Shown here piece after piece: positions 18,880 to 42,964 of a stretch of 64,000 nucleotides of DNA. The stretch's first letter is position 1. Each line of letters opens with the position of its first letter. The DNA is from Candidatus Saccharimonadota bacterium (lineage in GTDB: Bacteria; Patescibacteriota; Saccharimonadia; Saccharimonadales; Saccharimonadaceae): contig JAILSC010000009.1 of the NCBI GenBank assembly GCA_024697865.1, forward strand, positions 1 through 64,000, read 5' to 3'. Below the pieces are notes generated by a model, which saw only the letters and a program-made list of their open reading frames with translations, was not told the origin of the DNA and did not search any database. The position numbers were made by a program, and so were the translations under genes.

Positions 18880-18954
18880 TGGGATGTCGCCAAGTGGTAA
18901 GGCAGCGGGTTTTGGTCCCGTCATTCGCAGGTTCGAATCCTGCCATCCCAGCCA
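18880..18954 (+). tRNA. tRNA-Gln(TTG), CCA encoded
   Basis: Acceptor TGGGATG/CATCCCA, anticodon loop TTTTGGT with TTG anticodon, T-arm GCAGGTTCGAATCCTGC, 3' GCCA. Confidence 0.93.
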
Positions 18955-18965
18955 AACAAGTTCAT

Positions 18966-18986
18966 CGCCTCTAGAAGGCGTTTTTT
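18966..18986 (+). terminator. Terminator-like hairpin between tRNA-Gln and its duplicated 3' tail
   Basis: CGCCT-CTAGA-AGGCG followed by TTTTTT. Confidence 0.65.
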
Positions 18987-18992
18987 AATTGG

Positions 18993-19032
18993 GGATTCGG
19001 ACCTAACGGTGCGAATCCTGCCATCCCAGCCA
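18993..19032 (+). repeat. Duplicated tRNA-Gln 3' tail with hairpin
   Basis: GGATTCGGACC-TAAC-GGTGCGAATCC then TGCCATCCCAGCCA. The 21 nt CGAATCCTGCCATCCCAGCCA at 19012-19032 is identical to 18934-18954. Confidence 0.9.
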
Positions 19033-19052
19033 TTTTTTGTTATAATTAAGAT

Positions 19053-19484
19053 ATGATTAAGATAATTGCTGGGGGAAAGAAAAACACAGGTCCGCAAGCA
19101 GAGCTAATTGCCGAATACGAGAAACGTCTAAGAAAGCCATATGAGATAGAGTGGCGATTTATGGCGGAGGAAAAATTAGATGATTATTTAGCGGATTGGC
19201 CGTTCACAGGACGAGAATTTGTGATTTGCTGTGACGAACGAGGCCAGAATATATCATCAGATGAATATTCTGCCTGTTTGGAACGGGTGTTTACTGACGG
19301 ACGTGAGGTTATAATCTTGATTGGGGGAGCGTACGGGTTTACAGATACTGTGAGGGAGCGAGCGGATATGGTGTGGAGTTTCTCACGACTAGTATTTCCG
19401 CATCAATTATTTAGGGTAATGGTAACAGAACAAATATACCGAGCCCAAGAAATTGCCAAGGGAGGACATTATCATCATGCCTAA
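19053..19484 (+). CDS. rlmH: 23S rRNA pseudouridine-1915 N3-methyltransferase RlmH
   Basis: IILIGGAYGFTDTVRERAD...FPHQLFRVMVTEQIYRAQEIAKGGHYHHA. Confidence 0.9.
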   Translation: MIKIIAGGKKNTGPQAELIAEYEKRLRKPYEIEWRFMAEEKLDDYLADWPFTGREFVICCDERGQNISSDEYSACLERVFTDGREVIILIGGAYGFTDTVRERADMVWSFSRLVFPHQLFRVMVTEQIYRAQEIAKGGHYHHA

Positions 19485-23683: not shown

Positions 23684-23711
23684 ACGGATCCGACTCCCTG
23701 TACCCGCACCA
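23684..23711 (+). repeat. Orphan tRNA-3'-end-like sequence (T-arm/acceptor/CCA tail without a tRNA body)
   Basis: CGGATCCGACTCCCTGTACCCGCACCA looks like T-loop/T-stem 3' strand plus acceptor 3' strand and CCA; no matching 5' acceptor GCGGGTA found just upstream. Confidence 0.45.
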
Positions 23712-34892: not shown

Positions 34893-34934
34893 TGATATGC
34901 CCGGTAGGATTGGGATCCCGCCCGACTCTACCTA
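34893..34934 (-). repeat. Degenerate duplicated tRNA-Arg 3' tail
   Basis: TATGCCCGGTAGGATT (plus strand) at 34896-34911 is identical to 34978-34993; minus strand GGAT-CCCA-ATCC hairpin then TACCGGGCATATCA. Confidence 0.85.
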
Positions 34935-34974: not shown

Positions 34975-35051
34975 TGGTATGCCCGGTAGGATTCGAACCT
35001 GCGACCTTTGGCTCCGCAAGCCAACGCTCTATCCAGCTGAGCTACGGGCAC
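34975..35051 (-). tRNA. tRNA-Arg(GCG), CCA encoded
   Basis: GTGCCCG/CGGGCAT acceptor, D-arm GCTCAGCTGGATAGAGC, anticodon loop TTGCGGA, GGTTCGAATCC, ACCA. Confidence 0.88.
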
Positions 35052-35789: not shown

Positions 35790-35880
35790 GGAAGCGTGGC
35801 CGAGTGGTTGAAGGCGCACGACTCGAAATCGTGTGGGCGGGTTAACCGTCTCGGAGGTTCGAATCCTCTCGCTTCCGCCA
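35790..35880 (+). tRNA. tRNA-Ser(CGA), CCA encoded
   Basis: GGAAGCG/CGCTTCC acceptor, anticodon stem CACGA-CTCGAAA-TCGTG, long variable arm, GCCA. Confidence 0.93.
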
Positions 35881-35905: not shown

Positions 35906-35946
35906 GGATTCGGACCTTCGGTGCGAATCCTCTCGCTTCCGCCATT
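35906..35946 (+). repeat. Duplicated tRNA-Ser(CGA) 3' tail with hairpin
   Basis: GGATTCGGACC-TTC-GGTGCGAATCC then TCTCGCTTCCGCCATT; 23 nt at 35924-35946 identical to 35860-35882. Confidence 0.9.
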
Positions 35947-42592: not shown

Positions 42593-42702
42593 TTTTTTAA
42601 TTACTCTTATGATTATTAGTCCTAATAAAGTAGCCTAGCGGGTGGCTGGCTACTTAGTTGATTATATTATATCATATTATTTAGAATCGCGAGAAGGAAA
42701 AT

Positions 42703-42729
42703 GGCGGAAAGGACAGGATATTAATCCTA
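42703..42729 (-). repeat. Duplicated tRNA-Ser(GGA) 3' tail with hairpin
   Basis: TGGCGGAAAGGACAGGAT at 42703-42720 identical to 42875-42892; AGGAT-N4-ATCCT hairpin at 42716-42729. Confidence 0.9.
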
Positions 42730-42738
42730 GAGCTTTAA

Positions 42739-42860
42739 GACCGATAAACAAGAAACAGCAGAAACTTCGTTTCTGCACATCCCTCAAAGTTAATAAAAAT
42801 ATGAGAGCAAGCTCTCAATTTTTATATCTTTTCGGTCTGCCAGAAAGGCTACGCCTTTCT
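42739..42860 (-). repeat. Cluster of palindromes between tRNA-Ser(GGA) and its tail
   Basis: GCAGAAAC-TTC-GTTTCTGC (42759-42777), TGAGAGC-AA-GCTCTCA (42803-42818), AGAAAGGC-TAC-GCCTTTCT (42842-42860); the first two enclosed by AGACCGA (42739-42745)/TCGGTCT (42833-42839). Confidence 0.85.
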
Positions 42861-42874
42861 GCTACTTCTTTGCT

Positions 42875-42964
42875 TGGCGGAAAGGACAGGATTCGAACCT
42901 GCGAAGGGCGTGAACCCTTACACGCTTTCCAAGCGTGCGCCTTAAACCACTCGGCCACCTTTCC
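42875..42964 (-). tRNA. tRNA-Ser(GGA), CCA encoded
   Basis: GGAAAGG/CCTTTCC acceptor, anticodon stem CACGC-TTGGAAA-GCGTG, long variable arm, GCCA. Confidence 0.93.

Follow-up and report, generated by a model that had tools for sequence, protein, structure and literature searches.

Why should a tRNA gene be followed by a second copy of its own 3' end, set on a hairpin? The question is raised by the tRNA-Gln gene of a Saccharibacterium (GCA_024697865.1), in the window of 64,000 nt from contig JAILSC010000009.1 that was analyzed here. The last 21 nt of this tRNA (CGAATCCTGCCATCCCAGCCA) are repeated exactly 57 nt past its CCA, with a period of 78 nt. The hairpin that precedes the copy, GGATTCGGACC-TAAC-GGTGCGAATCC, forms 10 of 11 pairs with a single G.G mismatch (fold z = -2.2), as an earlier note on this DNA had described. 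That note also ascribed one common architecture to all four tRNAs of the window. All four do have their own cognate copy (Table 1), but only the Gln and Ser(CGA) units are built alike, the copy of Arg(GCG) standing after a hairpin unlike that of either. The terminator-like hairpin reported between tRNA-Gln and its tail is present as well (CGCCTCTAGAAGGCG-T6). It had been taken as an argument for integration scars, which is weak since most units open with the terminator of the tRNA or with a T-run. The ORF downstream of the tRNA-Gln unit is presumably rlmH, judging from its protein family. A -35/-10-like pair for this gene is seen at 19018-19046 on the forward strand, with the -35 inside the tail copy.

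Table 1. tRNA genes of the window, their downstream units and the neighbouring gene (positions in the window).
Feature	Position	Strand	Basis
tRNA-Gln(UUG), host of a class A unit	18880..18954	+	ARAGORN, Rfam
Terminator-like hairpin between tRNA-Gln and tail	18966..18980	+	consensus match only
Class A hairpin of Gln: left arm GGATTCG, G.G mismatch, ACC-TAAC-GGT; base-paired to the first letters of the copy; same hairpin plan in 37 distinct relatives	18993..19011	+	
Exact 21-nt copy of tRNA-Gln 3' end (positions 56-76, including CCA)	19012..19032	+	
rlmH, conserved downstream neighbour of the tRNA-Gln unit	19053..19484	+	name from protein family
tRNA-Arg(GCG)	34975..35051	-	ARAGORN
19-nt copy of tRNA-Arg 3' end, 1 mismatch (TCA for CCA), class C-short type	34893..34911	-	
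tRNA-Ser(CGA)	35790..35880	+	ARAGORN
Class A hairpin of Ser(CGA), GGATTCGGACC-TTC-GGTG	35906..35923	+	
Exact 21-nt copy of tRNA-Ser(CGA) 3' end	35924..35944	+	
tRNA-Ser(GGA)	42875..42964	-	ARAGORN
RtT-like unit (class C-long) of Ser(GGA), ending exactly on the tail	42702..42800	-	weak model match, E 0.53
Exact 18-nt copy of tRNA-Ser(GGA) 3' end (positions 59-76), 155 nt downstream	42702..42719	-	

The source genome (G000) belongs to a Ca. Nanosyncoccus-type Saccharibacterium of 709,535 bases, of which about 671 kb were read, with 46 tRNAs. Following a proposal of the earlier note, the 300 nt downstream of every tRNA were scanned for cognate 3' ends and compared with shuffled sequences. Copies with at least 17 of 18 nt and CCA were found behind 13 tRNAs, 12 of them matching 18/18 and one 17/18, and the remaining 33 have no near tail. 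For the same 46 tRNAs, the controls reached at most 15/18 upstream (once), 12 on the reverse strand, and 14 in 2,300 shuffles. The cognate copies are real and beyond chance. Non-cognate tRNA ends do not exceed 15/18 in the same downstream stretches, except in 8 of 1918 comparisons at 18/18, which are probably due to neighbouring tRNA genes or to shared ends. Tails occur on 12 of 24 tRNAs with the T-loop TTCGA versus 1 of 22 others (p = 8e-4). Exact copies away from any nearby tRNA are limited to two in about 671 kb, from Gly(CCC) and Glu(UUC), the latter at C26:12008. The Gly(CCC) copy (GGATCCGACTCCCTGTACCCGCACCA) lies in the window at 23686-23711 on the forward strand, with the exact match at 23694-23711, far from its tRNA on C21, and may be a decayed tRNA or an old unit.

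The units of Gln and Ser(CGA) define what we call class A. Its plan is arm-CG-G-ACC-loop-GGT-G-CG-arm, followed by a 21-nt copy that starts at tRNA position 56. The terminal loops vary from 3 to 16 nt, and 33 of the 37 distinct cases have the G.G mismatch. For tRNAs whose T-loop lacks CG (Gly-GCC, Met), the copy begins at a CG farther upstream and is 29 nt long. The outer arm co-varies with the T-stem of the cognate tRNA: position 59 is paired in 0.81 of own tails and in 0.26 when other tails are used, and the observed sum was not reached in any of 5000 permutations, a comparison that ignores shared ancestry of the loci. We scanned for this pattern in one genome per species from 85,462 species. 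Saccharibacteria have it at 53 places. At 45 of these a tRNA lies no more than 200 nt upstream, and most of the other places are truncated where a contig or stretch ends. In other phyla the same scan gave 20 places, none behind a tRNA, and the viral contigs searched gave no match. One apparent class A match in G037 (CGGACC..GGTGCGA) was rejected, being the T-arm of the tmRNA itself.

The other units fall into a short and a long form of class C. In class C-short, a terminator is followed by a minihelix resembling an acceptor/T-arm and then by a copy of 18 nt that starts at position 59. Folding is better with own than with swapped tails (p = 3e-4, shared ancestry of the loci being ignored). Class C-long has inserts of 94-175 nt with a branched structure, and over the last 34 nt own tails have no fold advantage over swapped ones. 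Unit lengths keep to two tight ranges, about 40-64 and 94-175 nt.

The long class led to a comparison with the RtT repeats of Escherichia coli. In E. coli K-12, exact 19-nt 3' ends of tRNA-Tyr are found at +159, +337 and +515 downstream of tyrV and at +156 downstream of tyrT. RtT (RF00391) is present in each tyrT/tyrV insert, where the copy closes each unit, and the annotated rttR RNA has its 3' end exactly on the CCA of the tRNA-end copy. With the Rfam model of RtT we obtained 25 matches at E <= 1 in 17 of 100 genomes of the genus (best 8.1e-6), and none in 14 control genomes except E. coli. A same-strand tRNA is located upstream of 18 of the 25, and 9 end on a cognate copy with 15-18 of 18 letters. 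The best score in the genus, 35.9 bits, is under the Rfam gathering cut-off of 45 bits, as are all others, and we therefore name these units RtT-like rather than RtT. Three weak model matches at tRNA-free sites (L360, L366 and L368) are long palindromes with GAGACCGTGTCCCGCGAG..CGAGCGAAGCGAG-type sequence and represent another repeat family.

We use X for the tRNA-end copy and anti-X for the strand that pairs with it. The alignment with E. coli has GGATGAGAACC..GGTTCGA..CGAGCGAAGCGAG in common, and 10 of its 20 pairs show compensatory changes, mostly in the anti-X:X stem, the E. coli RtT being among the rows. None of 2000 permutations equals the fit of the true anti-X to its own tRNA (16 rows, one of them E. 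coli tyrT, with kinship ignored). Some units, such as L355, combine a perfect X with a poor anti-X. A covariance model built here (R1), with E. coli in its training set, matches loci outside the training set behind tRNAs with E down to 6.5e-9. Its top ranks in the source genome are the units behind tRNA-Glu(CUC), tRNA-Tyr and, weakly, tRNA-Ser(GGA). By covariance model, the long class is related to RtT.

Like the 178-bp repeats of E. coli tyrT, the units stand in tandem behind a tRNA gene, end in an exact tRNA 3' end with CCA, and have the anti-X:X outer stem with GAGAACC..GGTTCG and CGAGCGAAGCGAG hairpins. On the other hand, they occur in another phylum, on Ser, Gln, Arg, Glu, Tyr, Val, Asn, Gly, Lys, Trp and other tRNAs, each with its cognate end, and classes A and C-short have no branched core. 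The outer stem and the two conserved inner hairpins of RtT are present in the long class, whereas there is one hairpin in class A, which is a new form. No model assigned class A to RtT, and its place in the family is suggested by the common plan and by common arrays, as in L145, where an RtT-like unit comes first and a class A unit second.

Tails recur across this genus of tiny, host-dependent bacteria, behind roughly one in four tRNA genes, 0 to 3 per tRNA, always cognate and in three architectures. They were found behind about 1/4 of the tRNAs fetched in G010 and about 1/6 in G003, on tRNAs that largely differ from those tailed in the source genome. Among 215 tRNA contexts, 70 were flagged for tails, a few falsely (proline tRNA clusters, a coding repeat); the hairpin pattern had served to collect part of this set, which is therefore enriched in tails. 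In G028, from another family of the order, tails are few and decayed, and R1 at E <= 1 found no unit in the loci searched. Between tRNA-Gln and rlmH, where synteny is maintained, there is no unit in G015, one in the source genome, and two in G064 and RGIG5746, and in N. alces the hairpin is kept and the tail copy is gone. In 20 arrays, decay is stronger in the most distal copy (1.75 vs 0.6 mismatches, p = 0.015). Perfect tandem repeats exist in L158 and L178. Our literature search found no description of tRNA-end copies in Saccharibacteria.

We suggest, at about even confidence, that the tails are units of a tRNA-linked family of structured repeats of the RtT kind, which multiply locally by duplication and, as RNA, fold up with a CCA end like that of a tRNA. 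Each unit consists of a short spacer, often with a terminator, the anti-X strand, a hairpin or small branched structure, and X, which repeats the final 18-21 nt (rarely 29 nt) of the tRNA it follows, including the terminal CCA. Upon read-through of the terminator, X would close on anti-X and form a stem with a free CCA, resembling the 3' end of a tRNA, and the stretch between both CCA ends could be released as a small RNA, as with the annotated rttR. New units would be generated at the 3' end of the tRNA, by duplication or insertion, so X would be cognate from birth, and old units would decay. Classes A and C-short may be reduced or parallel versions that retain only anti-X and X. Transcription, processing and any benefit to the cell are inferred. 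Many tails are preceded by a terminator-like hairpin, which speaks against steady co-transcription, and the co-variation of the arms could stem from the mode of unit formation and not from selection.

The stronger proposal, that RtT-like units are a wide functional class of RNAs, each yielding a small RNA that carries the CCA end of the cognate tRNA, seems to us somewhat unlikely. The maintained RNA element proposed in the earlier note is borne out as far as the arms co-vary with the cognate tRNA in classes A, C-short and RtT-like, and the long class matches RtT. Maintenance at each locus fails, since many tRNAs have no near tail, tails vary at the same synteny and distal units decay. The units are not conserved site by site.

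The same note offered att-type scars as the alternative. Serine or tyrosine recombinases would integrate in the T-loop of a tRNA, restore its 3' end and leave the displaced end as a tail, most elements being reduced afterwards to short ends. This we find unlikely for the whole family, although large serine recombinase genes are located directly downstream of many tRNAs in relatives, partial tRNA copies are seen (L118; G028 Leu), and the preference of tails for TTCGA T-loops would fit. One case is in the source genome, where a large serine recombinase gene adjoins tRNA-Glu(UUC). A Glu tail of 18 nt, exact and with a class C arm, is found near the end of another contig, so that one integrase element apparently ends in a class C tail, across two contigs. 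There, the serine recombinase frame runs into the antisense of tRNA-Glu(UUC) (L013, C12), and the Glu tail (L298) is beside small ORFs, one of which, read by eye, is presumably a hexapeptide acetyltransferase. However, the recombinase-adjoining tRNAs of relatives have no far tail within the tens of kb examined. The tight unit lengths are unlike random deletions, and the loops and spacers vary in length with pairing retained, which does not fit a DNA att site of fixed spacing. In addition, one class spans many different tRNAs, with the cognate copy every time, the viral contigs gave no class A match, and kinship with RtT is unexpected for att scars. Integrase scars explain some loci but not the whole family.

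In G012 (C33; L109-L111), about 31.7 kb with two serine recombinases separate tRNA-Ser(GGA) from its tails. Once joined, the flanks of this stretch make up a palindrome that is nearly perfect. The recombinase pair was rejected as the source of the tails, because it fits an element inserted in a palindromic site between tRNA and tail, and the tails are therefore older than the element. The recombinase of the source genome gave no match in viral contigs.

A comparable tRNA anchor, with the 3' part of the tRNA repeated downstream, is shared by tRNA-targeting integrases, attR remnants and tycheposons. Recurring 20-bp ends of tRNA-Lys in a flexible island, and tycheposons at tRNA-Met, have been reported (PMC10872708). 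The units here differ from them in having usually no cargo or integrase, a constant short length, and arms fitted to the tRNA.

Neutral slippage, by which template switching and unequal recombination would duplicate tRNA 3' ends into functionless units, we judge quite improbable. It agrees with the perfect tandem repeats (L158, L178), with the distal decay and with the loss of X in N. alces. Nevertheless, random switching is not expected to produce a constant G.G mismatch together with a conserved core, ACC/GGT, over many tRNAs, and the RtT core common with E. coli also speaks against it.

Folded attC sites of integrons have a conserved mismatch and a variable terminal loop. The hairpins here likewise retain their mismatch and tolerate variable loops, occur in arrays, and include a single ORFan cassette, which suggested integron-like cassettes on tRNA genes, mostly empty, with the tRNA 3' end as insertion site and the folded single-stranded hairpin plus X as cassette site. 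Ordered insertion would fit the better-preserved copies nearest the tRNA. In G010, one array (L085) reads tRNA-Gln, two tails, a 101-aa ORF and two tails. The ORF (C16:79529-79831) is present in 1 of 100 genomes of the genus, its own, and has no Pfam match over the cut-off. However, this is the one gene-bearing array in total and nearly all units are empty, the site contains a tRNA 3' end, unlike attC, and no integron integrase was seen. No dedicated recombinase is evident either: G010 has a single Xer-type PF00589 gene and the source genome one more. PF00589 genes of any type are present in nearly all genomes examined, and none was seen beside tails. We regard the cassette reading as very improbable.

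Reverse transcriptases (open frames of about 370-560 aa) are present in 10 of 15 genomes of the genus and in none of 9 from other families of the order. As maker of the tails this enzyme was rejected, being absent from the tail-bearing G000, G003 and G010, and it is therefore not needed now. A stop at modified A58 was considered as the origin of the 18-nt copy, and was dropped because class A begins at CG wherever CG sits.

Similarity to REP and Rickettsia palindromic elements is seen in a class B core, GCGTCCCAAGGGGC. With or without target repeats, this core follows tRNA-His, Asp, Thr and Leu and also lies within long palindromes (L201, L218, L208, L213, L203 and L214). In a serine recombinase gene it is a 33-nt in-frame insert (G000:C4:87079-87095 among the core sites). 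Unlike those elements, class A in Saccharibacteria was found only after a tRNA or at a cut end, apart from a few remaining cases, and a Y1 transposase had no match in the 15 genus genomes searched, the source genome included.

To our knowledge, RtT has so far been an isolated peculiarity of a single enterobacterial operon, its role being unclear. There are now dozens of natural variants, on a wide set of tRNAs and each with co-varying cognate ends, which reveal the parts that are kept: X, anti-X, CCA and one mismatch. The RtT-like set turns the E. coli oddity into a large family and makes the function of the element testable by comparison. In Saccharibacteria, structured repeats are gained and lost rapidly at tRNA 3' ends. 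If the units were indeed a wide functional class, their small RNAs would be mimics or decoys that report on or tune the tRNA, and rttR would be the one case noticed.
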